DNA from: Zwartia hollandica | GTDB taxonomy: Bacteria; Pseudomonadota; Gammaproteobacteria; Burkholderiales; Burkholderiaceae_B | Length of the DNA stretch: 64,000 bases | Assembly (NCBI RefSeq): GCF_019923725.1 | Contig: NZ_JAHXRI010000007.1 | Coordinates: forward strand, 186,001-250,000 | Direction: 5' to 3' | In this document: positions 50,941 to 64,000 of the stretch, piece after piece | How the letters are laid out: each line of letters begins with the position of its first letter | How positions within the stretch are numbered: the first letter of the stretch is position 1 | Notes under the pieces: model-generated | Databases searched by the model: none | Seen by the model: only the letters and a program-made list of their open reading frames with translations | Told to the model about the DNA's origin: nothing | Made by a program: the position numbers and the translations under genes

Positions 50941-50973
50941 AAAAAGCGGATGACGATGTCATCCGCTTTTTTT
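50941..50973. terminator. Bidirectional intrinsic terminator
   Basis: GCGGATGAC-gat-GTCATCCGC is a perfect 9-bp stem flanked by AAAAA on the left and TTTTTTT on the right, so it can end transcription from both sides. It sits 17 bases after the small-protein stop and overlaps the last codons of the convergent ABC permease gene. Confidence 0.9.
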
Positions 50974-51573
50974 ATTAAGCTTACGAGTTAATAAAACGAT
51001 CAGATATTTAGCGATCGAGAAGAACACCACAAAGAACAGCAGCACCACCAAGACAAGCTCAATTTGATCCTGCCGTGAGCTCATTGCATCTCCGCGTGCA
51101 AGCGTAAGCGTGACTGCCTCACGCACGCCAATCGCCGCACCAACACTCGTCGACATGACCAGGATCACAAACGTTCGACTGTGTATGGGTATCGCCAACA
51201 TAATGGACTCGCGGGTCATAGCGCCATAGCGCTTGAACAAATCTAACCATGTATCAGCCACGACCGCAATCGAATAGCAGGACAAGGCGAGTATCAACGC
51301 GATCACTGGTGCAAAAATTGCCGTAGATGAACCGCCATCAATCATCTGCGTCAAAATGTTAAGGCATAGAAACATGAATACGAAAACCGGCGAGGCGCGC
51401 AGCAATCCAACAATTGCTCCAACCAAACTGGCAATCAAACCTCCAGAGTAGGCAGCGTATGCAAGAGGGATTCCTAGTGCTAACCCAACGAGCAACGAGG
51501 CAAATCCCACCAATATATTTACATAAAATGCCTGTATAAAATCAAAGGCAAACGCCATATCGATCGCGCTCAT
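50959..51573 (-). CDS. Amino-acid-type ABC transporter permease
   Basis: The 204-residue protein has about five hydrophobic segments and the polar amino acid permease layout (FYVNILVGFASLLVGLALG start, RASPVFVFMFLC, and a diverged coupling loop near TRESIMLAIPIHSRTFVIL). It overlaps the receptor-permease fusion gene by 4 bp and is probably its membrane partner. No ATPase gene is present in this cluster. Confidence 0.78.
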   Translation of the reverse strand: MSAIDMAFAFDFIQAFYVNILVGFASLLVGLALGIPLAYAAYSGGLIASLVGAIVGLLRASPVFVFMFLCLNILTQMIDGGSSTAIFAPVIALILALSCYSIAVVADTWLDLFKRYGAMTRESIMLAIPIHSRTFVILVMSTSVGAAIGVREAVTLTLARGDAMSSRQDQIELVLVVLLFFVVFFSIAKYLIVLLTRKLNKKSG

Positions 51574-53216
51574 CGGGGTGCCCTCCTATTAATGATAAAA
51601 GAGGAACCGATAACCACTGCTTGTACAACAAGAATATAAAAGATAGTGACAATCAGAAATGTCGTTGACCGTTCACCGGTAAAAGAAGAAATATGTACGA
51701 GCGCAGTTAATACGTCTGGGACACCAATAAATGCAGCAACTGGGCTAGCCTTTACGGCATTGATGACGCACGCTCGCAACTGAACCCCGCCGTGTGCCAC
51801 AACCTCGCTAAAGCGCGATTCTGCAGGCATAGTTTGAGCGATCTCGGCTAAGGCTACACCACCCGTCGAACCGTTGTTGAGTCCAATCATCAGGAGCCCG
51901 ACCGTACCCGCCAACCAATAGTTATAAGGAAGGAATGAGGTCACCACAAGATAACCAAGCACCAGCAACAGAATAACGGGACTATTCATCAGTGCAGTTG
52001 TGAGAAGACGCCCAAGTAGCCGGAAAAACTTATACCGCGCGTTTAATAGTAAAAAAAACAAGCCTGAGAGAAATAACGTTGCCAGGATTGTTGCCATGAC
52101 AAATGTCAACGAGACAGCTAATCCCGTCCCGAACAGCTTTGCGGAAGCCTGACTCGTTAACATTGGAAAAGTGATGTTTAACTGCGCGACCGACTGCAAC
52201 CACTTTTGTAATTCAATGACCAAGGGGGCGATCGAGGTGGCAGGCCCCTCAAGGTCTACTGCAGCCAATACACAACTTGGATTTATCTCATATGAGGAAG
52301 GATAAAAACACGAGGTGTCGTTCCACAGCCGATTTTGTTCAACTAAAAATTCGGTTTTGATCCCATGTTGGTTGGCTGCCTCAACTAAAAATCCGCTTTT
52401 ATGATAGTGAATCAATAACAATCTGAGCACTACACCAAGAGTCTCTTCTCCAACGGTCTCTCCATCGGAAAGACGCACGGCCATTCCCCAAGGCACGGTC
52501 GAGTACGAAAACTTTTGTTCAAACTTTTCACGAAGCTCGCGCGGCGCATTCGGCCCCGTTACGCCCGCATAGAGCAAGGGTTCATCATGCGCGATTATTG
52601 AACAGGCACCGAGCTTGAGCGCGCCGATCATCCGATCTGGCCGATCAAACAGGATTAACTTTGCGCCCGCTGCTGCAATCTCTGCATTTGAATAACTTCC
52701 AAGCGGTACACAAATCGACTTGCCGGAAAGGCTATTCAAGCCTGTCAACTGATTATCACGGGCCGCCACAACGGCAAACCCCGCCGCATAATAATGAGGC
52801 TCGATAAACTCGATAACCTTGGCCCGAGAGGCGATGTGGCCCATTGTGGCTAGGATGAGATCTACCTTCCCTTCCAGCAATAAGGCAATGCGATTCGCGG
52901 GACTAACGGGCACAAACACCGGGGAGACGCCAAGATCACGGGAAATTCTACGTGCTAGGTCAATCTCAAACCCTGTATGGACACCGTCAGCCAAGACGCC
53001 GAATTCGCTGTAATTAACACGTACACCAATGTCAAAACGACCAGAGCAAATAACTTGCGTGAAAGTATCTTGCTTTACATTAGCAAGACCACATTTTGAT
53101 TTTGCACTGTTGATGTGGGCTGCAACCTCTTGCATGACCGGCACGGTTTCTGCGCGCACATTAAAGTGGAAGATTTGCATCAGCACAACAAGACACAATA
53201 AACGCATAATCTTCAT
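51570..53216 (-). CDS. Receptor-permease fusion of an amino-acid ABC importer
   Basis: The 548-residue protein has a signal or anchor segment and then a solute-binding domain of the SBP_bac_3 type. That domain runs over about residues 50-285, with GFEIDLARRISRDLGVSPVF, IALLLEGKVDLILATMG and SGKSICVPLGSYSN. A linker follows, then a permease domain with about five membrane segments from residue about 340 (TGLAVSLTFVMATILATLF, TALMNSPVILLLVLGYL, and the coupling-loop-like AESRFSEVVAHGGVQLRAC). Such fusions tether the receptor to the channel. The ATPase must come from elsewhere. Confidence 0.82.
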   Translation of the reverse strand: MKIMRLLCLVVLMQIFHFNVRAETVPVMQEVAAHINSAKSKCGLANVKQDTFTQVICSGRFDIGVRVNYSEFGVLADGVHTGFEIDLARRISRDLGVSPVFVPVSPANRIALLLEGKVDLILATMGHIASRAKVIEFIEPHYYAAGFAVVAARDNQLTGLNSLSGKSICVPLGSYSNAEIAAAGAKLILFDRPDRMIGALKLGACSIIAHDEPLLYAGVTGPNAPRELREKFEQKFSYSTVPWGMAVRLSDGETVGEETLGVVLRLLLIHYHKSGFLVEAANQHGIKTEFLVEQNRLWNDTSCFYPSSYEINPSCVLAAVDLEGPATSIAPLVIELQKWLQSVAQLNITFPMLTSQASAKLFGTGLAVSLTFVMATILATLFLSGLFFLLLNARYKFFRLLGRLLTTALMNSPVILLLVLGYLVVTSFLPYNYWLAGTVGLLMIGLNNGSTGGVALAEIAQTMPAESRFSEVVAHGGVQLRACVINAVKASPVAAFIGVPDVLTALVHISSFTGERSTTFLIVTIFYILVVQAVVIGSSFIINRRAPR

Positions 53217-53230
53217 TAAAGCGACTCTGG

Positions 53231-53896
53231 TTAGCGTTTAACGCAGACTTCCAAAATACGTGAATTAGCAAAGACGTAATCGCCATATCTTCGAAGGCCC
53301 TGCCCATTCCTTAGCAGAACTTCTGGCGGCACAGCTGAAATGCGCTCGGGTGACTCAAAAACCGTCCATTCCAAGACCGAGCGATATTCAAGACCAAGCG
53401 ACTCTAACAGCCTGACCGTATCCGGATACCCAACGAGATCATGATGCGTAAAGTACGCAATCCCAGACCGCCCCAACCGTTTGGGTAACGCTCCGATAAA
53501 TCGATCAATTAAGAGTCGACCATCGCCTCCCGTCCATCCAGGTGGTCTATCTTTCTCAGATACCAGCGCAGGGAAATGAGGCAAATTCGCGAGGATGACA
53601 TCAAAGTCTTGCTCTACTGGCAACGGACTCCACATGTCACCAATTAACAAGCGGCGAGGAATATTTGGTTGCGTCGCTGCAAGCAAACGCTCAGAGGACT
53701 CAACCGCTGCCTCACTAATATCTACACCCCACAACTGCTGAGCACCGAGTTTTGCTAGCGCTGCCAAGAGCACTCCACTCCCTACCCCTATGTCCAGCAC
53801 GCTCGTCATTCTTCGACCTAAGCACTGCTGCTCAATTACCTGTAATAAAGTCGCTGTGTATTGGCTCGGTCGAAATTGATACACGTAGGTTGTCAT
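53231..53896 (-). CDS. SAM-dependent methyltransferase, small-MTS/PrmC-like
   Basis: The 221-residue class I methyltransferase has SAM motif I VLDIGVGSGVLLAALAKLG, motif II GVDIS, and DFDVILANLPHFP. There the NPPY motif of glutamine and nucleotide N-methylases has become NLPH. The substrate is therefore uncertain. It sits between two ABC importer genes with 3-base and 14-base gaps, so it is part of their operon; it could modify the imported compound or a product of the nearby peptide cluster. Confidence 0.78.
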   Translation of the reverse strand: MTTYVYQFRPSQYTATLLQVIEQQCLGRRMTSVLDIGVGSGVLLAALAKLGAQQLWGVDISEAAVESSERLLAATQPNIPRRLLIGDMWSPLPVEQDFDVILANLPHFPALVSEKDRPPGWTGGDGRLLIDRFIGALPKRLGRSGIAYFTHHDLVGYPDTVRLLESLGLEYRSVLEWTVFESPERISAVPPEVLLRNGQGLRRYGDYVFANSRILEVCVKR

Positions 53897-53899
53897 GCG

Positions 53900-54715
53900 C
53901 TACCGACTTGGTTTCGGTGGGGTAACAGCAGGGGCATTCTGACTCTCATTAAACAGCGTTCGATACTTTTTTGTTAGCAAATAAAATTCATTTCTTTTAT
54001 TGGCCTTCACAACTTCTAATTCCAGTTTTGGAATGAGCGCATTAGCGCATCTCGAGCGCTTAGAGAACGCAAAAAACGTATCTGCCCTGAACGGGTATGT
54101 GGGCAGAATATGTACTTTGTCACCCAAATCTCGTGTGTAGATTTCAGAATATGCCGAATTTTCATACGCTAAAACGTAATCGGCATTACCCGCCAAGAGT
54201 CTGTCGATCGATGCGCTAAGGTTAGGCGAGCGCTCTAGTTGAAGCTCTTTCTCCACAAACAAGCCGAATGTACTGTCTCCATAAGTTTCGCCTCGACCAG
54301 CGACACCGACCCGACCTTTGAGGTCTGCATAGGAATTAAGAGGAAATCCAGTGCCTTTGCGTACAATCACCTGCAAAAACTGATAGGCGTAGGCAGGATA
54401 TACATAGGTTAAATATCGGGCACGTTCGGAGGACCAACCCGCTGAAAGAATCAAATCTACATCGCCACGGCGAGTCGCTTCAAGAGCCTCCGGCCAAGAA
54501 GAAAACATCTTAATGTCTACTTTTTTAACGCCAGCGGCTCGCAACGTCATTTGCGCTAACTCGACTGATGCACCCACTAACGCACCGTTATACACCCAAG
54601 AAGATGGGGCACCAGACGGCGGTCCCGTCACAGTCACTGAATCACAGACCTGTGCCTGCACAGATCCCGTGATCAAAACACTCGCTATCGCAGATATAAA
54701 TGTAAATTTTTTCAT
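53900..54715 (-). CDS. Amino-acid-type solute-binding protein (SBP_bac_3)
   Basis: The 271-residue protein has a Sec signal (cleavage near SVQAQV) and the SBP_bac_3 fold: NGALVGASVELAQMTLRAAG, EATRRGDVDLILSAGWSSERARYLTY, and SYADLKGRVGVAGRGETYGD. It should bind an amino acid or a small polar compound. It is the first gene of a four-gene minus-strand unit (receptor, methyltransferase, receptor-permease fusion, permease), so the system has two receptors and no ATPase. Confidence 0.85.
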   Translation of the reverse strand: MKKFTFISAIASVLITGSVQAQVCDSVTVTGPPSGAPSSWVYNGALVGASVELAQMTLRAAGVKKVDIKMFSSWPEALEATRRGDVDLILSAGWSSERARYLTYVYPAYAYQFLQVIVRKGTGFPLNSYADLKGRVGVAGRGETYGDSTFGLFVEKELQLERSPNLSASIDRLLAGNADYVLAYENSAYSEIYTRDLGDKVHILPTYPFRADTFFAFSKRSRCANALIPKLELEVVKANKRNEFYLLTKKYRTLFNESQNAPAVTPPKPSR

Positions 54716-54903: not shown

Positions 54904-55500
54904 ATGGCTAAAAATAAAACCACCCCGATACCCCGCGAGGTGCCAACTTGTAAAGTTGCACTTGCGACAGAGCTCTTTGCCAAAGAGTCGCATGTTGAAA
55001 AAACGTCGGACACTCAGGCACTGCCCACCTCCGACAAGAACTTCAGGCGCCTGTACGCAGACCAAACCGTCCACCACTGGTGTCAATGGGCAACGGTCGC
55101 TGGTTTTGTGCCAATTCCAGTCGTAGACATCCTATCAATCTCTGCCGCTCAAGCAAAGATGGTACACAGCCTGTGCAAAATCTACGATAAGCAATTCGAG
55201 CGCGAGGCGCTTTCGTCGATTATTTCAGGTCTTTTGGGCGGAAGCCTGACTGGCTTGCTATCAGCGAGCTTGGCATTTACGATGATTCGCAATATTCCTC
55301 TGGTCGGATCAACCCTGTCTTCGCTTACACAGCCAGCCGTCGCGTACGGTGCCACCTATGCGTTAGGCGCTGTTTTTATCCAACACTTCGAAAAAGGTCT
55401 GAATATGTCAGAGCTTTCTGTGAAAGAAGTGGAGCAATATTTTATAGATAAGTTCAAGCAGGGTCGCGCAGCCTTTAAAAAAACAGCGCCCGCGGCTTAA
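54904..55500 (+). CDS. DUF697-like membrane protein (paralogue of 61494-62102)
   Basis: The 198-residue protein has a polar N-terminal region and then the DUF697/YcjF-like core: NFRRLYADQTVHHWCQWATV, AGFVPIPVVDILSISAAQAKMVHSLC, and hydrophobic helices from about residue 110 to 165. The same core is in the gene at 61494-62102 (FRRLLADQTVKNWSQWATVA and AGFIPVPFLDLAAISGVQIKM). DUF697 domains are often attached to GTPases, but there is no GTPase domain here. The next gene, a thioesterase, starts 3 bases after its stop. Confidence 0.78.
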   Translation: MAKNKTTPIPREVPTCKVALATELFAKESHVEKTSDTQALPTSDKNFRRLYADQTVHHWCQWATVAGFVPIPVVDILSISAAQAKMVHSLCKIYDKQFEREALSSIISGLLGGSLTGLLSASLAFTMIRNIPLVGSTLSSLTQPAVAYGATYALGAVFIQHFEKGLNMSELSVKEVEQYFIDKFKQGRAAFKKTAPAA

Positions 55501-55503
55501 CAC

Positions 55504-56259
55504 GTGCCCGCAGTGTCACCCAACCTTTGGGTTACGCGCCCGTCTCCTAGTGCTCACGCAACGAAGCGCTTGTTTTGCCTACCCTTTGCAGGCGGAGGGG
55601 CCTCGGTCTACCGTTCCTGGGCTACACATTTTGGGCCAACGCTCGAGGTCTGCCCTATTCAGTTTCCCGGGCGCGAGGGACGAATCTTCGAACCGGCCTT
55701 CACCGGTGTGGACGCCTTGGTAGCAACGCTAAAGAAACACCTTAGTCCTTATTTAGATCGGCCCTATGCGATTTATGGACACAGCATGGGAGCGTTAGTC
55801 ACGTTTGAACTTGCCCAAGCGATCGCCAATGATGACAGTCTACCCAACCCCGAAAGGATTTTTGTCGCAGCACACCGTGCCCCGCACCTACCTTTGCAAC
55901 GTACCCCACTTAGTGACTTATCTACTGAGGCGTTTGTCGAGAAGTTAAAACAGTACGGTGGCTTCGACCAAGAGATTTTGAATAACATCGAAATGATGGA
56001 ACTCATCTTGCCGACACTTCGTGCCGATTTCACACTCTGCGAAAGCTATCAATACAAAACGAGTCCAAAATTAAAACATCCCATTCACGTATTCGCTGGG
56101 ACAGAAGATCAGCAAACAACAGTCGAAAGCACCTACGCGTGGGATCAACACAGTGATGTATCCGTCGACTCAACACTTTTTACGGGCGGACATTTTTTTT
56201 TAAATAGCTGCCAGCAAGATGTTCTAAAGAAAATCAGACAGACACTCTTATCAACGTAA
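55504..56259 (+). CDS. Type II thioesterase of nonribosomal peptide/polyketide synthesis
   Basis: The 251-residue alpha/beta hydrolase has the TEII features LFCLPFAGGGASVYRSWA, VCPIQFPGREGR, nucleophile S94 in YGHSMGALVTFELA, and the catalytic His in FTGGHFFLNS. Such enzymes clear wrongly loaded groups from carrier proteins of synthetases. No synthetase is in the window, but the MbtH gene at the right edge points to one nearby. GTG is the start, 3 bases after the DUF697-like gene, so these two are translationally linked. Confidence 0.88.
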   Translation: MPAVSPNLWVTRPSPSAHATKRLFCLPFAGGGASVYRSWATHFGPTLEVCPIQFPGREGRIFEPAFTGVDALVATLKKHLSPYLDRPYAIYGHSMGALVTFELAQAIANDDSLPNPERIFVAAHRAPHLPLQRTPLSDLSTEAFVEKLKQYGGFDQEILNNIEMMELILPTLRADFTLCESYQYKTSPKLKHPIHVFAGTEDQQTTVESTYAWDQHSDVSVDSTLFTGGHFFLNSCQQDVLKKIRQTLLST

Positions 56260-56319: not shown

Positions 56320-57576
56320 TTACTTCACCAGTACGGCAGGTGAAGGTGGGATAGAGCCCGAGATCTTATTCAGAGTAAGCAGTTGAGATAACAACACCAT
56401 CACCTCTTTACTAAAACTATTCGAGTCATCCGGTATGCTGTAGGTGGCTCCTCGATACTCCAAAGCAGTCAACGTATTAGCGAGACGCTGGTTCTTGTGA
56501 ACAATGAACAAGGGCACTGGAGGAAAGTCTTCCGCCGTCGAGTTAGGCTTTGCTTCGAGTGCCTCAGGATTGAAGATCTTCACGATCGTTGGTTTTTCCG
56601 CATTCTGCATCGAGACGACCTGACCCAAGAAGTCGAAGACATTTCGCGTTGAGCGCAGTTTGATATTGATCGATAAATTTTTATAGGTTTGATTACCAAA
56701 ATCTGCCAGCAATTTACCAAGCTCAGTCGCCGTGCGACTCGGTGCGCGCGCCTTGAACGTTTGTGTACAGTACATCGACGGAGCTAGTGAGTCCCCAAAT
56801 AAAACCTGACCATCAGTGCGATTCAAACACATACGGAACTGAGGAACAAGTCGAACCAGTTGATACCTGTTAGGGCGGCCTGGCGTTGCAATCTCATCCA
56901 CGGTGACGCCGGAAGCCAGCGCTGCAGTGAACATCCCCATCGATGCTCTCATCGTAGCCTCGTCCATAACCGGCGACTGAGGGACTTTCATGAAAGTTGG
57001 CTCAACACTCAAACCAGCTGCCACCAGCACATACAACACCCTCTGAAAGCTCAAATAGTCTTCTTTGGAAGGGTCATTCACGAAACTGGCAATAACATCT
57101 TTCTTGTCCGTCACCACATCGATCGAGTCGATCACGAGCGAATACAACACAGATCTAGGCGCAGCTTGATTGGCCGACAAATAGCCTACGATCTCAGGCT
57201 GTATTGCTGACAAAAAAGGCTTCATGAAGGTCGCGTTGTCGAGAGACGACTGGGTAAACGTATATCCACCGCTGACCGTCAACCCTACAGTGGGTGTCAA
57301 GGTGTTAGACATTGTAGAGAGGCTGTTCGCAGTACCCGTTAACGACGCGTTGGCTGACACATTACCCGTGCCCATAATGGACGGAATATCCAAAAAACTC
57401 ACGGGCATTTTTTGCGATGCGCGCACGACGTTAATGAGAGTATTGTCATTACTGTAGGACTCTACGACGTCCCTGTAGGCTGCGGACATACTACGAAAGG
57501 TTGTGGAATTCGTAGAACCGCAACCGCTTAGCACAGCAACGACCACCGCCATGCCCAATAAAAAAAATTTACGCAT
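56320..57576 (-). CDS. Lipoprotein of unknown family (paralogue of 20420-21658)
   Basis: The 418-residue protein has a lipobox ending at Cys19 (VLSGCG). It shares the block order of the lipoprotein at 20420-21658, including SFLDIPSIMGTGNVS, SLDNATFMKPFLSAI, LRSTRNVFDFLGQVV and the C-terminal LLTLNKISGSIPPSPAVLVK. It is about as long as the other copy. The function is unknown. It stands apart from its neighbours (terminator after, 45 bases to the small gene before). Confidence 0.82.
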   Translation of the reverse strand: MRKFFLLGMAVVVAVLSGCGSTNSTTFRSMSAAYRDVVESYSNDNTLINVVRASQKMPVSFLDIPSIMGTGNVSANASLTGTANSLSTMSNTLTPTVGLTVSGGYTFTQSSLDNATFMKPFLSAIQPEIVGYLSANQAAPRSVLYSLVIDSIDVVTDKKDVIASFVNDPSKEDYLSFQRVLYVLVAAGLSVEPTFMKVPQSPVMDEATMRASMGMFTAALASGVTVDEIATPGRPNRYQLVRLVPQFRMCLNRTDGQVLFGDSLAPSMYCTQTFKARAPSRTATELGKLLADFGNQTYKNLSINIKLRSTRNVFDFLGQVVSMQNAEKPTIVKIFNPEALEAKPNSTAEDFPPVPLFIVHKNQRLANTLTALEYRGATYSIPDDSNSFSKEVMVLLSQLLTLNKISGSIPPSPAVLVK

Positions 57577-57621: not shown

Positions 57622-57831
57622 TTAACCCAAAAACTTTGTGATGAACCAAAAGGAAGCGAAAGCGACTACGCCAATTAAAACGACACGGACAATGAAGTTT
57701 AATAACGTGGCGAAAATACCAATGGGTTTCCCGTCCGCACCAAACTGTTTACGGCGAAAAATCGAAAACATGATGAAGCCACCAAGCATGGCCCCGACCA
57801 ACAAAATCTTGATTACAACGATAGCAGTCAC
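57622..57831 (-). CDS. Small two-segment membrane protein, GTG start
   Basis: From a GTG at 57831 (GGAG 6 bases upstream) this gives 69 residues with two hydrophobic segments (TAIVVIKILLVGAMLGGFIM and IVRVVLIGVVAFASFWFI) and a short loop FRRKQFGADGKPIG. A longer reading from 57870 adds 13 residues but lacks a ribosome site. The gene is unrecognised. Confidence 0.6.
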   Translation of the reverse strand: MTAIVVIKILLVGAMLGGFIMFSIFRRKQFGADGKPIGIFATLLNFIVRVVLIGVVAFASFWFITKFLG

Positions 57832-57993
57832 AGTGGGCTCCAATAAAGGCCAAGATAATGATGCACACACTTGCTTGTGTGAGCGTTTAACAGCAGGGCT
57901 TTGCGAATTCTTTTGCTATCATACCGAAACAAGCTGTACTTTTCGATAATGCTCCATCGAAAAAATCTGGTTTTCAGATGTATTGGATAAATA

Positions 57994-58842
57994 ATGATAG
58001 CGGTGAAGAAAAGACTCAGAGCTGTCCTCACGTTGTGCCTAGCTTGCCTGGCCGCACCTGTTGCTGCACAGCCAGGCAACGCAACGCCCAATCCCGCGAC
58101 AACGGACAAGACGACAGCGGCTAGTGCACCTGACCGCGAGGGCCGTATCCCTAACGCAAAAATCTCGCAAAACCTCGCACAGCGACGGATAGGCTTAGTT
58201 TGTTCGATATTTGCCGGAAAATTTGACTGGTGGACACTGACTTTACGCATCAAGCAGTATTCCACAATGGGTCTTACTGAAAACTGTGATGAGCAGCACT
58301 ATGACAGCCTCACGCTTGCGTCAATGGAGGCACAACTTCGTGCCGTACAACAACCTCTTTTTGTTGTGCGCGGCGGTGCACATCGCTACTTAATGGATGT
58401 GAACTTAGCCACCCTACCCAATCCCTTTGTTCGAATCGGAGAGCTTATGTTTTCCGCAGTAGGTGAAGTGCGTATTGGTTTAGTGGATTTGATTAGGGCG
58501 GAGAACTATATACCGGACAACCTAATTGCCAGCAATTACAGGCCCTTCACTATGCACGGCAATATTCAGTACATCTGGAATATTGGCAAGCCTATCCACC
58601 GCCTCGTTGCGCCTAATGGCGATCGCTACATCATGTACGGTTACACAACACGTGTAATCAAACAACTCACACAAGCCAACCTCGCCGAGATGGGACCTTT
58701 ATTGAATAAACCGGAAGGCTGGAAGTACGAAAGTTTTTTATTAGACAAGACACTCACAATCAAAACAACGCCGTCCAATCGCTTTAAGGTAGATTTTTTG
58801 TTTGATGATGCCAACAATCTGTACATCAAACACGACGATTGA
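57994..58842 (+). CDS. Exported protein of unknown family
   Basis: I do not recognise this 282-residue protein. It has a signal peptide (VLTLCLACLAAPVAAQ), then a low-complexity Thr/Ala/Pro linker to about residue 55. A globular region follows, with two cysteines (CSIFAGKFDW, ENCDEQHYD) that may form a disulphide, and aromatic stretches such as HGNIQYIWNIGKP. The C-terminal VDFLFDDANNLYIKHDD ends the chain. It is on the opposite strand from the SPFH operon, ending 23 bases from it. Confidence 0.72.
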   Translation: MIAVKKRLRAVLTLCLACLAAPVAAQPGNATPNPATTDKTTAASAPDREGRIPNAKISQNLAQRRIGLVCSIFAGKFDWWTLTLRIKQYSTMGLTENCDEQHYDSLTLASMEAQLRAVQQPLFVVRGGAHRYLMDVNLATLPNPFVRIGELMFSAVGEVRIGLVDLIRAENYIPDNLIASNYRPFTMHGNIQYIWNIGKPIHRLVAPNGDRYIMYGYTTRVIKQLTQANLAEMGPLLNKPEGWKYESFLLDKTLTIKTTPSNRFKVDFLFDDANNLYIKHDD

Positions 58843-58865: not shown

Positions 58866-59801
58866 TCAGCGAACACTCTTTAGAGGTGTGTCTCTAAGCA
58901 CTTCACTTCCACCCATGATCAGCGGCAAGCCAGAACTGCCCGATCCGAATATCAACACTTTGCTGTTTGGCGAGGCCGCGAGATTTGCGCTAGCTTCAAT
59001 GCCTTTGTAACGAAGGTAATTTTCAGTTAAAGCGTTATCTGCAATCGATTGAAAATCTCTGATACCAGCAGCTTCGATTCGCTTTCGCTCAGCCTCTAAC
59101 TTTTCGGTCACTAGACGATATTGATATGCCTCGGACTTCACGAGTTCGACCGCCTTTTGTTGCAACGCCGCCTCAAGGTCTCCAGGAAAGCTGAACTTCG
59201 TCACTTGCACGTCACTGATCGTCAGCAACCGCACATCGGTTAACCCGATCGGCGTGATCTTTTTCAGAATGACATCGCTGGTATCCAAGGAAATTGTTTG
59301 GCTAATTTTTTGTATATCTTTGGTAAAAGCATCGACAGATGAGTATTGCGCCACCGACTCACGCGCTTGCGCTTCTATGATGGGCAGAATAGTTTTTTCG
59401 TAATAGTCTGGCCCAACAAACTTGTGCAAGAGAGGAAGGTTGAAGGGATAGGCCACATACTGAAAAGAAATGGTCATTTTTGACTTCAACCGATCAGAAG
59501 TCAAAACCTCAATATCCGTTGTCTTTTGCTGCACTTGGGACGTATAGATTGTCATTTGGTTCCAAGGCAGGGTCAAGGTTAGGCCCTCTTGGTACACGTT
59601 ATCGAGATCCGTACCGCCCCCTAGGCGTTTGTATAGGACGCCTAAATGACCAGCCGGGATGATGTGTACCGAGTGAGGCCAAATCACAAGACCGCCACCC
59701 ATGAGCACCAAAACTATCACCACGATACTGACTGCGTGCAACCTCAGCCAATTGATGTAGTCGTGCACTAACTCGGAAAAATAAGAGCTTATTCGACTCA
59801 T
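58866..59801 (-). CDS. SPFH/prohibitin-family membrane protein
   Basis: The 311-residue protein has one N-terminal membrane segment (about residues 25-42). An SPFH (band 7) domain follows: IIPAGHLGVLYKRLGGG, EGLTLTLPWNQMTIY and TSDRLKSKMTISFQYVAYP. A helical coiled stretch (LEAALQQKAVELVKSEAYQYRLVTEKLEAERKRIEAA) and a hydrophobic tail come next. Such proteins build membrane scaffolds or cages around proteases or other assemblies. It is the last gene of the MbtH-ParA operon and starts 15 bases after the exporter stop. Confidence 0.86.
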   Translation of the reverse strand: MSRISSYFSELVHDYINWLRLHAVSIVVIVLVLMGGGLVIWPHSVHIIPAGHLGVLYKRLGGGTDLDNVYQEGLTLTLPWNQMTIYTSQVQQKTTDIEVLTSDRLKSKMTISFQYVAYPFNLPLLHKFVGPDYYEKTILPIIEAQARESVAQYSSVDAFTKDIQKISQTISLDTSDVILKKITPIGLTDVRLLTISDVQVTKFSFPGDLEAALQQKAVELVKSEAYQYRLVTEKLEAERKRIEAAGIRDFQSIADNALTENYLRYKGIEASANLAASPNSKVLIFGSGSSGLPLIMGGSEVLRDTPLKSVR

Positions 59802-59816
59802 GATATCTGGTGCCTA

Positions 59817-61454
59817 TTAATCAAATGCACGAAGCTTGCCATTTTGAATAAACAGCAGGTGGTCGGCTTCATGGAAATAATGATCATCGTGTGTAATCGC
59901 GATCACAATTTTATTCATCGCTCGTAACTCAGGAATAATTTTTTCGTAAAAGAACTTACGAAACTCAGGGTCTTGATCAGAAGCCCACTCGTCCAAAATA
60001 ATAATGGGTCGTTTCTCCAAGATTGAAACGATCAATGCAATTCTTTTCTTTTGGCCTGTCGACAAATTTAAATCACTAAAGGATCGACTTTGAAAGGTAA
60101 CGCGCTCTGGTAACTCTAGTTTTTTGAGCCACTTATCAACCTCTTCGTCAGGCGTATCGTACATGCCATACAATTTTTTAAACAGGTGAAAATCACTAAA
60201 AATTGTCGAGAACAGATCTCGATACGCTTGTGATTGTGCACTGTTGACTTCAACACCATTCAAAAGAATTCGCCCTGAGTCGGGTGCAATCAGGCCAGTC
60301 AAGATACGGATAAACGATGTTTTGCCCGACCCATTACCACCACGAACAAAATAGACCTTGCCTGCTTCAAAATCACAACTAATGGGGCCCAACACAAAAG
60401 GCGTCGCACCTGGCTTACTTTCAAAACGATAAGAAACGTTCTCGACAGAAATCCTCTCAACGACCTGATCAACGAAATCATCGGCGGCAGGAATTTCTTT
60501 TTTAATCGCCTCGAGCTGTGCCATAAAACGATTTACTTCTTCCGCGGCGGTATTAGCCTGCGAGAGAAGCGGCAGCGAGCTAATGATCCCGGTTAAGGAA
60601 CCCGCGATAAACAATACCGTCGTTGACACAGCAACCACGCTTTTATAAAACTCAGAAGAAATCACCGGGATCACGAAAATCGCTACGCCGACGAAAGCGT
60701 AAATCATCACCTGAATTGAGGCGAAACCATTAGACAAATAAATGAAGGTTCGTGCCTTGACATCAGCGACGTGGCGCGAGCTGTTGATGATGTCACTACT
60801 GATATCAAAAGCCCTCGCGGAGTTCATCTTGATCTCTTTGAAGCCAGTCAGGAAGTCAGATATTTGGGAATTTGCTTGTCCTTCCTCCATCCACGCATCT
60901 TCGAGCTTGTCGTGCATCGCCGTAAAATTCCCAGCAAAATACACGAGGATTGCACACCCAAACACCAGCGTAATCAGTCCGGCCGCAAAAGACAGATAAA
61001 ACAAATATCCAACTGCAAAGACAAGCATGGACATTGCTTGGCAGGTGGGGACAAACATCGTGGCCCCCTGACTGATCGTCAGCGTATCTCGGCTCAAGAT
61101 GGTCATGATGTGAGGGGGGCCAATTTTCTGCAGAGTCAACAGATCCGTCTTTAAGACCTCTCCCATCACACGCATCCGAATGCGATGGATCAGAATCTGA
61201 GTAGCGGTCATACTTTCTTTATTATTGATTCGTACCAACACTGTGTAGGAAATCAATAGGGGTATGAACAACGCGAACGCCCATAAAGGCGTGTCTTGCG
61301 CAGCCACTTGTGCGGCGGAGTAGTTCACGAGTGCAATCAAGGCCGTGCTGCATAGGCCGGCAAGACCAGCCACGTAAATAATACGACCCAAACTTAAGCC
61401 ACTGTATTCTTGGACTAACTTAATGAGCTCTGAAGCTTGTCGTGCACTACGCAT
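59817..61454 (-). CDS. Cyclic peptide/lipopeptide ABC exporter, SyrD/PvdE-like
   Basis: The 545-residue protein has an N-terminal membrane domain of six segments and a C-terminal ATPase: Walker A GGNGSGKTS, signature STGQKKR (LSTGQ instead of LSGGQ), Walker B PIIILDEWASDQDPEFR, and switch His in AITHDDHYF. The length, the LSTGQ-type signature and the DEWASDQDPEFR block are typical of the cyclic peptide exporters (SyrD, PvdE, YojI). It would carry a peptide or precursor out of the cytoplasm. Together with thioesterase and MbtH it marks a peptide synthesis cluster. Confidence 0.9.
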   Translation of the reverse strand: MRSARQASELIKLVQEYSGLSLGRIIYVAGLAGLCSTALIALVNYSAAQVAAQDTPLWAFALFIPLLISYTVLVRINNKESMTATQILIHRIRMRVMGEVLKTDLLTLQKIGPPHIMTILSRDTLTISQGATMFVPTCQAMSMLVFAVGYLFYLSFAAGLITLVFGCAILVYFAGNFTAMHDKLEDAWMEEGQANSQISDFLTGFKEIKMNSARAFDISSDIINSSRHVADVKARTFIYLSNGFASIQVMIYAFVGVAIFVIPVISSEFYKSVVAVSTTVLFIAGSLTGIISSLPLLSQANTAAEEVNRFMAQLEAIKKEIPAADDFVDQVVERISVENVSYRFESKPGATPFVLGPISCDFEAGKVYFVRGGNGSGKTSFIRILTGLIAPDSGRILLNGVEVNSAQSQAYRDLFSTIFSDFHLFKKLYGMYDTPDEEVDKWLKKLELPERVTFQSRSFSDLNLSTGQKKRIALIVSILEKRPIIILDEWASDQDPEFRKFFYEKIIPELRAMNKIVIAITHDDHYFHEADHLLFIQNGKLRAFD

Positions 61455-61493
61455 CTGTCCATTCCATTTAAGTCAGCACTGCGTTGGCCCAGT

Positions 61494-62102
61494 TTAAATG
61501 GGGGTCGCAGCTACATCGGCCGCTTTTTCTGCAGCACTTTTCTTTAGAAACATTTTTTTTGCATAAGCGACCTGCTCTTGATAAGTCGACTTTATTGCAT
61601 CAATCGACATAGACATAAGCGTCCCATTAGACTCAAAATGTCTGACGAATATCGTACCGACTGCATACGTGGTCGCGTAAGACATCACAGGCTGGGTTAC
61701 CGCAGCAAGTGTCGAGCCAATGATAGGCACACTCTTAATTAGCGTGCCAGATAGCGCCGTCGAAGCTACTGTCGTGATACCCCCTCCCGCCAAACCAGAC
61801 AAAATTGCGCGAACTTGTCGTTGCTCAAAGGGGATGTCATAGACCTTACACAAGTCATAAATCATCTTAATCTGCACACCAGAGATTGCGGCGAGATCAA
61901 GAAAAGGCACGGGTATAAAGCCCGCAACCGTTGCCCATTGAGACCAATTTTTGACAGTTTGATCCGCAAGCAAGCGACGAAAGTCTTTGACCATCAGCGG
62001 CTCCGCTAATGCTAAGTCCTCATCCCTGGAGTACTCCGCCTCAAACTGCTGCGCCGCAGCTTGCCCACGGACGTTACGGTCTGTTGGATCGGATTTTGTC
62101 AT
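61494..62102 (-). CDS. DUF697-like membrane protein (paralogue of 54904-55500)
   Basis: The 202-residue protein has an acidic N-terminus and the DUF697 core with three to four hydrophobic helices (KNWSQWATVA, AGFIPVPFLDLAAIS, GLAGGGITTVASTALSGTLI, MSYATTYAVGTIFVRHF). Its sister gene lies next to the thioesterase gene 6.5 kb away. It precedes the exporter by 39 bases and follows the Lys/Ala-rich gene by 60 bases. No GTPase domain is present. Confidence 0.78.
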   Translation of the reverse strand: MTKSDPTDRNVRGQAAAQQFEAEYSRDEDLALAEPLMVKDFRRLLADQTVKNWSQWATVAGFIPVPFLDLAAISGVQIKMIYDLCKVYDIPFEQRQVRAILSGLAGGGITTVASTALSGTLIKSVPIIGSTLAAVTQPVMSYATTYAVGTIFVRHFESNGTLMSMSIDAIKSTYQEQVAYAKKMFLKKSAAEKAADVAATPI

Positions 62103-62162
62103 GACAGTTACCTTTTCAAAATAATACCGGGGCAGTCTAAGTTGAGCTGCACCGTAGTCGAC

Positions 62163-62939
62163 TCAGCGACCAAGTTTAAACGCCATTCGCTTCAAATGAC
62201 TCAGTCCATTCCAGTCAAGCGAAACATACTTGTGCTGTCCATTCAATTGTCGAGCCAAGAAAATTGTGTTTTTGCGAATATTTAAGATGGACGCCGTCAC
62301 GAACCCTAACCCACCACCCATAACAAGCCCAGCAACAGCAAGAGGGAAAAACCCAGATCTCGATCGGTCGACCGGCCCCTCAAGATGCATGAGCGAAACG
62401 AACTCACCATTAGGCTCGTAGAAACCAAACTCGTCCGATTGTGGCCCTGGAACAATCTCTCGGACACTCAATACATCGCCATAGCGGACCTGCGCGACGG
62501 GGCGATTGCGCAAAACCGGGACCGCAACAACCTCAGCCTGCCCTTCCTTGCTTCTGCCGTACTCTTGTGACGCACTCACCTCCGGTGCCGCGTTGGCAAC
62601 GACAGCTTTACTCTTGTTTCTCGGGGTTTTTACACTCTTCTTTTTTTCTTCCAAAACACCGCTAGCTGCTACGGCCTTTTCAGGTGAGGCGGGCTTGACT
62701 TGCTTGATCGATTTGATGTCAGCCTTACTTGTCTTTTTCGCGACAGCTTTTCCAGTCCCTTTCACTGATGGCTTAGCTTTGGTCTTTTCTGGGCGCGCAG
62801 CAACGGACTTTGTCTTCGCCGTTCCCGTGCGCGCAGCCACTGGCGAATCAGACAACAATCCTGATCGGGGTGGGGCTGACTTCGTGTCTACCACCAGTGG
62901 GTTGAGACGAATCGTTTTTTTTGCTCGGGTCGTAGCCAT
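62163..62939 (-). CDS. Lys/Ala-rich protein with C-terminal membrane segment, probable ParA partner
   Basis: The 258-residue protein starts MATTRAKKTIRLNPLVVDTK. A long low-complexity Lys/Ala/Pro/Ser region (about residues 30-130, with KTKAKPSVKGTGKAVAKKTS) resembles histone H1-like tails. A globular region with VLRNRPVAQVRYGDVLSVRE and a hydrophobic segment near residue 200-220 (FPLAVAGLVMGGGLGFVTA) follow. Basic N-terminal segments often stimulate ParA-type ATPases or bind DNA. I use the ATG at 62939, which lies 11 bases after the ParA stop. This gene has no recognised family. Confidence 0.72.
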   Translation of the reverse strand: MATTRAKKTIRLNPLVVDTKSAPPRSGLLSDSPVAARTGTAKTKSVAARPEKTKAKPSVKGTGKAVAKKTSKADIKSIKQVKPASPEKAVAASGVLEEKKKSVKTPRNKSKAVVANAAPEVSASQEYGRSKEGQAEVVAVPVLRNRPVAQVRYGDVLSVREIVPGPQSDEFGFYEPNGEFVSLMHLEGPVDRSRSGFFPLAVAGLVMGGGLGFVTASILNIRKNTIFLARQLNGQHKYVSLDWNGLSHLKRMAFKLGR

Positions 62940-62950
62940 ATCTACCTTAT

Positions 62951-63703
62951 CTATCGTTGAGCAACTTCTGTTGCGAGCGCACGATAGTCGGCCGAGGCCG
63001 CGCACGAAGCGTCGTATTCAAGCACTGGCATTCCATAAGAAGGCGCTTCGGCCAGGCGAACATTCTCTCGAATCAGCGTCTGCAATACCTGGGCACCGAA
63101 ACGCTCTGTTAAAAGCTCAAGTACATCCTTCGAATGTCTCGTTCGCGCATCAACACGGGACGCTACAAAACCAAGTATTTCCAGGTCGGGATTCAGCACT
63201 TCTTTAATCTCGTCAACTAAAGACATCAGTTGGGCCACACCCGAGAGCGTAAGCACATGCGTCGTGACGGGGATCAACAGTTCTTTGGCAGCGACCAAAG
63301 CATTTAGCGTCACCACACCAAGAGTGGGTGGCGTATCAATCAAGATGTAATCCCACTTTGACGCATCAAGCTTGGCCAGTCGACGCTTCAATATTGAATC
63401 AATAGCAAGCTTGCCAGCAAGCGCCTTTTCTACATTTGCCAGATCTTGACTAGCGATAATCACGCCAATGTTTGGCGTGGCCGAGGCACTAATCAGCTTT
63501 TCAACAGCGCCGGCCTCCGTCAACAGCTTGAACGCACCATCCGCATGCTCGCCTGCGGCCAACCACTGACTGGCATTCGCCTGAGGATCTAGGTCGATCA
63601 CTAGCACCCGCTGCCCAGTTTCCGCCAGCGCTGCAGCCAAATTAACTACCGTGGTTGTCTTGGCACAGCCACCTTTCTGATTTGCAACCGCGATTGTTCG
63701 CAT
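62951..63703 (-). CDS. parA: ParA-family partition ATPase
   Basis: The 250-residue ATPase has the deviant Walker A KGGCAKTTT (signature Lys10 and Lys15), Walker A' LVIDLDPQANASQWL, and Walker B DYILIDTPPTLG. It has no N-terminal DNA-binding domain, so it is the small, cargo-positioning type of ParA (as with carboxysomes, chemoreceptors and granules). ParB is not in the window, and the Lys/Ala-rich protein immediately downstream is the obvious candidate partner. The ATP-bound form would bind the nucleoid and move or space cargo. Confidence 0.9.
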   Translation of the reverse strand: MRTIAVANQKGGCAKTTTVVNLAAALAETGQRVLVIDLDPQANASQWLAAGEHADGAFKLLTEAGAVEKLISASATPNIGVIIASQDLANVEKALAGKLAIDSILKRRLAKLDASKWDYILIDTPPTLGVVTLNALVAAKELLIPVTTHVLTLSGVAQLMSLVDEIKEVLNPDLEILGFVASRVDARTRHSKDVLELLTERFGAQVLQTLIRENVRLAEAPSYGMPVLEYDASCAASADYRALATEVAQR

Positions 63704-63729
63704 TGGACAACACCTAAGAAAAACAACTG

Positions 63730-63969
63730 CTATTTGGCTACTGCATCCATCGCTTTGCGTAGACTAGCAGGACGCATGTCGGTCCAATGCTGGTCGATAT
63801 ATTGTGTCACTTCATCTTTGGAACCAGCAAAACCTTTTTCATGCCATCCTGCTGGCACAGCTTTTTGCTCAGGCCAGATTGAGTATTGTTCCTCGTCGTT
63901 GATGATCACTTTGAAGCGATCACCATCAATCGTGTAGGCGTCTAGACGGACCGTTGCTTTTTCTACCAT
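63730..63969 (-). CDS. mbtH: MbtH-family protein
   Basis: The 79-residue protein has the full MbtH pattern: N24-D-E26-E-Q28-Y-S30-I-W32-P33, PAGW ending at W42, and WTDMRPASL at 62-70, with the three conserved tryptophans. MbtH proteins bind and activate adenylation domains of nonribosomal peptide synthetases. It is the first gene of the minus-strand operon MbtH, ParA, Lys/Ala-rich, DUF697, exporter, SPFH seen here. The synthetase probably lies just beyond the right end of the window. Confidence 0.93.
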   Translation of the reverse strand: MVEKATVRLDAYTIDGDRFKVIINDEEQYSIWPEQKAVPAGWHEKGFAGSKDEVTQYIDQHWTDMRPASLRKAMDAVAK

Positions 63970-64000
63970 GATTGATCACTTTTACTTAAGGGCTAAAGTT

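Follow-up and report, generated by a model that had tools for sequence, protein, structure and literature searches.

The operon and its genes

This study concerns six adjacent minus-strand genes of Zwartia hollandica in which a ParA-type ATPase is encoded together with functions in non-ribosomal peptide synthesis and export. The genes lie at the end of a window of 64,000 nucleotides (the whole stretch of DNA analyzed), which spans bases 186001-250000 of its 552-kb contig, the genome comprising 3.2 Mb in 25 contigs. They code for an MbtH-like protein of 79 residues (63730-63969; Pfam MbtH, 3.4e-18), a ParA ATPase of 250 residues, here termed operon-type (62951-63703; Pfam AAA_31/ParA, 8e-50), a Lys/Ala-rich protein of 258 residues from an ATG start (62163-62939), which matches no Pfam family and was characterized by an alignment of 5 orthologues, motif tests and hydropathy, an all-helical DUF697 protein of 202 residues (61494-62102; Pfam DUF697, 7e-12), a cyclic-peptide-type ATP-binding cassette (ABC) exporter of 545 residues (59817-61454; Pfam ABC_tran, 5e-25) and an SPFH (prohibitin-like) membrane protein of 311 residues (58866-59801), in which Pfam Band_7 (1e-17) covers residues 47-233. 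The intergenic gaps, from MbtH to SPFH, are 26, 11, 60, 39 and 15 bases. The original prediction had described six packed genes with these spacings, and the open reading frame (ORF) coordinates and family assignments agree with it.

The exporter scores 315.8 bits with the NCBIfam model TIGR01194 ('cyclic peptide export ABC transporter'; cut-off, 286.2 bits) and also matches PRK10522, below the cut-off of that model. The SPFH protein has a single N-terminal hydrophobic segment (residues 23-41, by hydropathy), and its closest solved relatives in a sequence search of the PDB are prohibitins. A promoter and terminator scan of the operon returned matches near the shuffled expectation. No microcompartment shell family was found among the Pfam matches of the operon, no search aimed at shell proteins having been made.

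Conservation of the module within the genus

In a scan of named genomes, all 4 of the loci recovered kept the order of the six genes; in one of them, the contig ends inside the SPFH gene. All four relatives are uncultured betaproteobacterial metagenome-assembled genomes (MAGs), one of them filed as Bordetella parapertussis, a label on which we do not rely. Among 32 congeneric genomes, the SPFH gene was detected in 24, the operon-type ParA in 25, MbtH in 23 and a Condensation domain in 26, the operon-type ParA being called at 296 bits or more (no other ParA match in these genomes exceeds 173 bits). SPFH and the operon-type ParA were both present in 23 genomes and both missing from 6, SPFH occurred by itself in one (G868) and ParA by itself in two (G855 and G856), the last three being assemblies that are 65-86% complete (Fisher test with kinship ignored, 2e-4). 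A Condensation domain was present in 25 of the 26 genomes with SPFH or the operon-type ParA; the exception, G858, has a polyketide synthase (PKS) gene adjoining the module. All six genomes with neither gene are without MbtH, and five are without a Condensation domain, the sixth (G870) having a single partial match. The association of the module with Condensation domains is accordingly unlikely under independence (Fisher, 1.7e-4, for the 32 congeners with kinship ignored).

The ParA loci of 24 of the 25 genomes, one per genome, were fetched, G864 being left out. The order ParA, partner with DUF697, exporter and SPFH recurs, complete in 18 of the 24; the other six lie on short contigs that break off before or within one of the later genes. 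An ORF for a non-ribosomal peptide synthetase (NRPS) or PKS is present in 11 of the 24, with its nearest end 1.3-6.4 kb from ParA, and G864 supplies, from coordinates, a twelfth link between module and synthetase. Some of the adjacent synthetases are NRPSs with MbtH, a thioesterase or CmlA, and others are type I PKS-like and without MbtH, the classes being assigned from phmmer matches, with Pfam for the L039 NRPS only. The neighbors of the ParA module thus differ among species, being PKS-like genes in some and NRPS genes in the rest (L042, L065, L068, L070, L072). This variation within the genus looks like exchange of the cargo synthase.

We conclude that the six-gene operon is conserved and functionally linked, beyond chance. 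The original prediction had proposed a search for co-occurrence in other genomes, and the MAG loci and the genus-wide core show such co-occurrence. It had also held that a lack of any nearby synthetase, together with a lack of conserved order elsewhere, would make this a chance neighborhood. The genome of the window has no synthetase close to the module, as such a neighborhood would have it, but the conserved order, the co-occurrence and the synthetase linkage in relatives contradict the absence of a functional link, which we regard as practically discounted. That MbtH and the exporter denote non-ribosomal peptide synthesis and export, as first proposed, is well supported, since relatives of the module adjoin NRPS/PKS genes and the module and Condensation domains co-occur in the 32 congeners.

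The operon-type ParA

The window ParA carries a deviant Walker A motif with the signature lysine (NQKGGCAKTT), and K10, K15, D39 and the Walker B residue D123 are invariant in 10 operon ParAs. Its profile positions 2-250 align with solved ParA/Soj proteins. The operon ParAs stop at the family end or a few residues from it and show no MinD-type C-terminal membrane helix. A MinD-type membrane ATPase was also considered and is disfavored, as no MinD-like C-terminal tail is present.

A tree of 39 rows places the 24 operon ParAs on one side of a branch with support of 100/100 and 15 rows on the other, namely six chromosomal ParAs of the genus and the nine best matches from outside it. The six ParAs of loci in which the partner is split into two proteins (see below) form one supported set (97/95), so that the split looks like one event. 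The genome of the window codes for a second, chromosomal ParA, whose gene is followed by that of a ParB-like protein, judged from its N-terminal sequence.

A dedicated partner of ParA

In 17 loci, the gene next to ParA codes for a single, fused protein made of a short basic N-terminus, a variable and often Lys/Ala-rich linker, and a DUF697 domain. The N-terminal consensus is MATRxRKTxxxNPLD, and an alignment of 11 partners shows no variation at M1, T8, N12, P13, L14 and D15. In the clade of the window, two proteins take the place of this partner: the Lys/Ala-rich protein, on which the motif is retained (in the window, MATTRAKKTIRLNPL), and a separate DUF697 protein. The latter shares 38-45% identity with the C-terminal part of every one of the 17 fused partners (35-45% over all best rows). 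The original prediction had treated the two as separate proteins, which holds for this clade; most relatives have them joined in a single chain.

The Lys/Ala-rich protein changes fastest within the block, falling from 81% to 37% identity across the MAG loci, and both of its ends are conserved in the alignment of the 5 orthologues. Its C-terminal domain, with a hydrophobic segment at about residues 198-219 by hydropathy, found no match in the fused partners. The structure model of this protein has a mean predicted local distance difference test (pLDDT) score of 45.9, with linker residues 58-153 all below 50, and that of the DUF697 protein has a mean of 62.9; both values are of low confidence. 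The fused partner showed no relative in the PDB at E 1, and Pfam found no ParB domain in the partner proteins of the window.

The motif is present on all 17 fused partners and on all 6 Lys/Ala-rich proteins (23/23), the 24th ParA locus ending before the partner gene. It was absent from the 6 DUF697 proteins of split loci and from all 27 DUF697 proteins encoded elsewhere than downstream of ParA, which include other DUF697 proteins of the same loci, a chance-level match of 24 bits (L025:7970-8392) and a start at a locus edge (L060:1-471). Kinship is ignored in these counts of fused and split partners. The comparison shows what appears to be a dedicated, motif-bearing partner of ParA. Two publications describe ParA/MinD partners in which a basic, disordered N-terminus, joined to varied cargo domains, stimulates the ATPase (PMC10241942, PMC7993993). 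Because these published partners use a positively charged N-terminus, the Lys/Ala-rich protein of the window is likely to be the ParA contact, and DUF697 is likely to be a cargo or membrane domain. The partner would then share with such proteins a cargo domain preceded by a short N-terminus, basic and disordered, the disorder being read from a low-confidence model.

Two other readings of ParA bear on this anatomy. ParA and its neighbor could be a stray plasmid-type partition pair that came to lie beside a biosynthetic locus; ParA does score on plasmid-partition models, below their cut-offs. We hold this to be very improbable, as the ParAs belong to one clade and the pair sits, in one orientation in the fetched loci of the genus, with MbtH or other biosynthetic genes on one side and the exporter on the other, and the partner carries the DUF697 of the NRPS/PKS-linked core and no detected ParB domain. 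Alternatively, ParA may be a local switch of the assembly or activity of the exporter or synthase, with the partner only recruiting or unloading ParA. ParA-family proteins tied to machines rather than to DNA are common, their roles are often unclear, and they are suspected in some secretion and cellulose operons; the window ParA itself weakly matches BcsQ (9.8e-11, below the cut-off of the curated model). The partner, however, has the anatomy of described ParA/MinD activators (basic N-terminus, variable linker, cargo-type domain), and ParA aligns over its full length with Soj-type ParA and has no MinD-like tail. We therefore consider a switch unlikely, if the most credible of the alternatives.

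A core without ParA outside the genus

Outside the genus, the genes for DUF697, the exporter and SPFH adjoin NRPS/PKS genes without ParA in 7 of 7 fetched Burkholderiales loci. A sample of 300 genomes of the order contained three genomes of other families with SPFH, and all three loci hold DUF697, the exporter and an NRPS or PKS. In a sample of 200 genomes of the family, from which loci were taken at DUF697 matches of 34 bits or more, the four stronger matches (G414, G372, G377 and G394) all mark loci with DUF697, exporter, SPFH and synthetase. Relatives also occur on plasmids (19 of 72,556 records), and alphaproteobacterial plasmids are among those with the core beside NRPS/PKS genes. The exporter, SPFH and DUF697 are found together in 6 of the 7 plasmids examined, and an NRPS in 5; pSM-2 of Skermanella mucosa comes near the set of the window, with DUF697, a hydrolase, the cyclic peptide exporter, prohibitin, MbtH and an NRPS, and a plasmid of Azospirillum argentinense carries a similar gene set. 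No ParA was found in the loci fetched outside the genus, whether from Burkholderiales, the class sample or the plasmids.

In five of five loci tested from other genomes of the gammaproteobacterial class (L053, L054, L056, L057 and L060), SPFH is followed by a gene for a periplasmic binding protein (Peripla_BP_6), and three of these lie beside a PKS or NRPS/PKS gene. At one of them, a protein of 633 residues has DUF697 at its C-terminal end only, its gene (L053:12007-13905) lying two genes from a hybrid PKS/NRPS gene and from SPFH.

Comparison of the loci shows a DUF697-exporter-SPFH core that travels with NRPS/PKS genes and to which the genus adds ParA and its partner. SPFH proteins can regulate proteases, and SPFH and DUF697 could form a quality-control or immunity shell, similar to HflKC/FtsH, that guards the membrane or the exporter from the product, ParA being a separate inheritance add-on. 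That the ParA-less core beside NRPS/PKS genes is the widespread form fits a shell of this kind. No protease gene was seen in the conserved gene set, however, and the ParA-partner motif on a DUF697 protein would be left unexplained. A shell thus seems improbable to us, slightly more so than a switch.

The synthetase probably served by the operon

The MbtH gene of the operon is the only one found in the genome, by protein search and with PF03621. The original prediction had suggested looking for a synthetase beyond position 64,000, and none was found there: an NRPS just past the window edge is ruled out, as dapA, a bamC-like gene and other housekeeping genes lie upstream of MbtH, and no Condensation domain was matched on the 552-kb contig. 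The 11 Condensation matches of the genome are all on other contigs: at the start of C1, at the end of C18, and on the short contigs C5, C6, C12 and C24. With the sole MbtH in the operon and the NRPS genes on other contigs, MbtH, the thioesterase and the exporter probably serve an unlinked NRPS, which these fragments would represent. A gene for a biopterin-dependent aromatic amino acid hydroxylase lies near the NRPS modules of C1 (L011:4101-5051), and one for a CmlA-like beta-hydroxylase about 15 kb beyond it (L011:18799-19998). The two suggest a hydroxylated aromatic residue in the product.

Companion genes

In the two MAGs with enough sequence, the conserved block continues beyond SPFH, and the conserved unit is thus larger than the six-gene operon, reaching down to a solute-binding gene. 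Next to SPFH, a plus-strand gene (57994-58842) codes for a putative secreted protein of 282 residues without a Pfam match, with identities of 88, 52 and 56% in the relatives' loci L021, L022 and L023. It is followed by minus-strand genes for a small protein of 73 residues with two hydrophobic segments by hydropathy (57622-57843; 93, 70 and 60% in the same loci) and for a lipoprotein-like protein of 418 residues with no Pfam match and a lipobox-like N-terminus, read by eye (56320-57576; 85 and 64% in L021 and L022). Two plus-strand genes code for a type II thioesterase of 251 residues, kept with the module in relatives (55504-56259; Pfam Thioesterase, 6e-43), and for a second DUF697 protein of 198 residues, which is without the ParA-partner motif (54904-55500; Pfam DUF697, 8.5e-10). 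The minus-strand gene at 53900-54715, linked to the module in relatives, codes for a solute-binding-like protein of 271 residues with weak family matches only (89 and 60% in L021 and L022). Homologues of the secreted, lipoprotein-like and solute-binding genes lie near the module in other congeners too.

Adjoining the solute-binding gene are three further minus-strand genes (50959-53896), for a methyltransferase-like protein, a SBP_bac_3 protein of 548 residues and a protein of 204 residues without a Pfam match. Their order is kept in relatives, with identities of 28-35% in L022.

A proposed positioning system for an export station

We favor, as moderately probable, the view that the operon codes for a ParA positioning system, and that its cargo is a station made of the exporter, a prohibitin-type cage and a megasynthase. 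The earlier idea, that the peptide machinery is held at defined membrane sites, may be made more specific in this way, the occurrence of the motif on ParA partners alone being what points to it; taken as a whole, the original interpretation is partly supported.

Several observations weigh against this view. The DUF697-exporter-SPFH core occurs without ParA in most lineages and, within the genus itself, in L071 and L073 (G857:C6 and G873:C59), so that ParA is not essential to the core. In both loci, two SPFH genes flank a secreted-protein-like gene, DUF697 and the exporter, and no synthetase was found in the fetched sequence of 15-20 kb. Export alone could be the task of the three-gene core beside NRPS/PKS genes. 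In a sample of 369 genomes of the class, nine others have SPFH, and an NRPS/PKS gene adjoins it in three and not in six; no exporter was found in these nine at the threshold used. An order search of 399 genomes, with a model built from the operon ParAs and at most 6 candidates scored per genome, found no operon-type ParA outside the genus: the best other ParA reached 249.9 bits, as compared with 440.7 for that of the window, and the nine best ParA loci other than the genus's own (3.2-3.8 kb each) held no module gene besides ParA among the queries. Within the genus, 13 of the 24 ParA loci are without NRPS/PKS genes. These are all six split-type loci, which form the clade of the window, and seven fused-type loci, six of which are at most about 16 kb long. 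In Z. hollandica itself, no synthetase adjoins the operon. A strict form of the partner motif matched 23 of 1681 ORFs (of at least 100 residues, in ParA-module and comparison loci), exactly the 23 partners, and, having been written from those same proteins, tests specificity only. The models of the Lys/Ala-rich and DUF697 proteins are also of low confidence, too low for a fold search.

If the operon is a positioning system, a prohibitin-type SPFH cage in the inner membrane would enclose or adjoin the exporter, DUF697 would be the adaptor to the membrane or the cargo, and this station would be where the synthetase works together with MbtH and the thioesterase. The product would be a non-ribosomal peptide, or a polyketide in some congeners, and the likely client in the genome of the window would be the unlinked NRPS. 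ParA would bind the nucleoid as an ATP dimer, and the basic N-terminus of the partner, on its flexible linker, would touch ParA and stimulate its ATPase, such that the stations become distributed along the nucleoid and both daughter cells inherit some of them. Motif, linker and DUF697 would act as one chain in most congeners, and in the clade of the window the motif would be held by the Lys/Ala-rich protein with its own hydrophobic segment. Put more generally, a natural-product assembly line would be a ParA cargo, in that exporter, cage and NRPS/PKS make up a separate station in the membrane, whose spacing and inheritance over the nucleoid depend on a DUF697-based partner; on this we see the balance as even.

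Were this so, the machinery for the synthesis and export of secondary metabolites would be an added class of cargo for ParA/MinD positioning, and the ParA-less core would give proteobacteria a membrane microdomain of general use for megasynthase products. DUF697 would gain a role open to testing, that of an adaptor to cargo or membrane, with a short N-terminal motif named as the contact, and there would be a genetic handle on the old question of whether, and in what way, bacterial megasynthases are arranged on the membrane and passed on at division. In genome mining, the DUF697/exporter/SPFH set could also mark exported NRPS/PKS products, even when it lies far from the synthetase.

Comparison with known systems

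The window's exporter belongs, above the cut-off, to the TIGR01194 family, as do SyrD/PvdE-type exporters; we know of no ParA, DUF697 or SPFH partner of the classical members of this type. The SPFH protein resembles those of prohibitin/SPFH cages in its Band_7 domain and N-terminal hydrophobic segment and differs in being encoded in an export operon. The original prediction knew of no described system with these genes. We found none for the whole set either, but an NRPS/PKS cluster with neighboring genes for a cyclic peptide exporter and a prohibitin has been noted in Thalassobaculum sp. OXR-137, and the authors of that work propose that the prohibitin may interact with the exporter (PMC12016528). 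That report concerns a single cluster, and ParA and DUF697 do not occur in the part of its text available. A literature search, in which subscription journals and bioRxiv were thinly covered, found no report of ParA or DUF697 with NRPS/PKS clusters, and no paper searched describes a DUF697-based ParA partner. As far as the accessible sources go, it is thus the ParA part of the module that is new, and the exporter and prohibitin beside NRPS/PKS genes that had already been noted.

The closest parallels are ParABS, McdAB of carboxysomes, PpfA/TlpT of chemotaxis clusters and PomXYZ of the divisome. As in these systems, a Soj-type ParA is paired with a dedicated partner that has a basic N-terminus, a linker and a cargo-type domain, separately from the chromosomal ParAB. 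In contrast to ParABS, the partner proteins of the window show no ParB match. In contrast to the ParA/MinD positioning systems in general, the partner domain is DUF697 and the apparent cargo an exporter, a prohibitin and a megasynthase, a cargo that the available parts of PMC10241942 and PMC7993993 do not name. The placement of assembly-and-export stations may nonetheless resemble that of chromosomes and carboxysomes.

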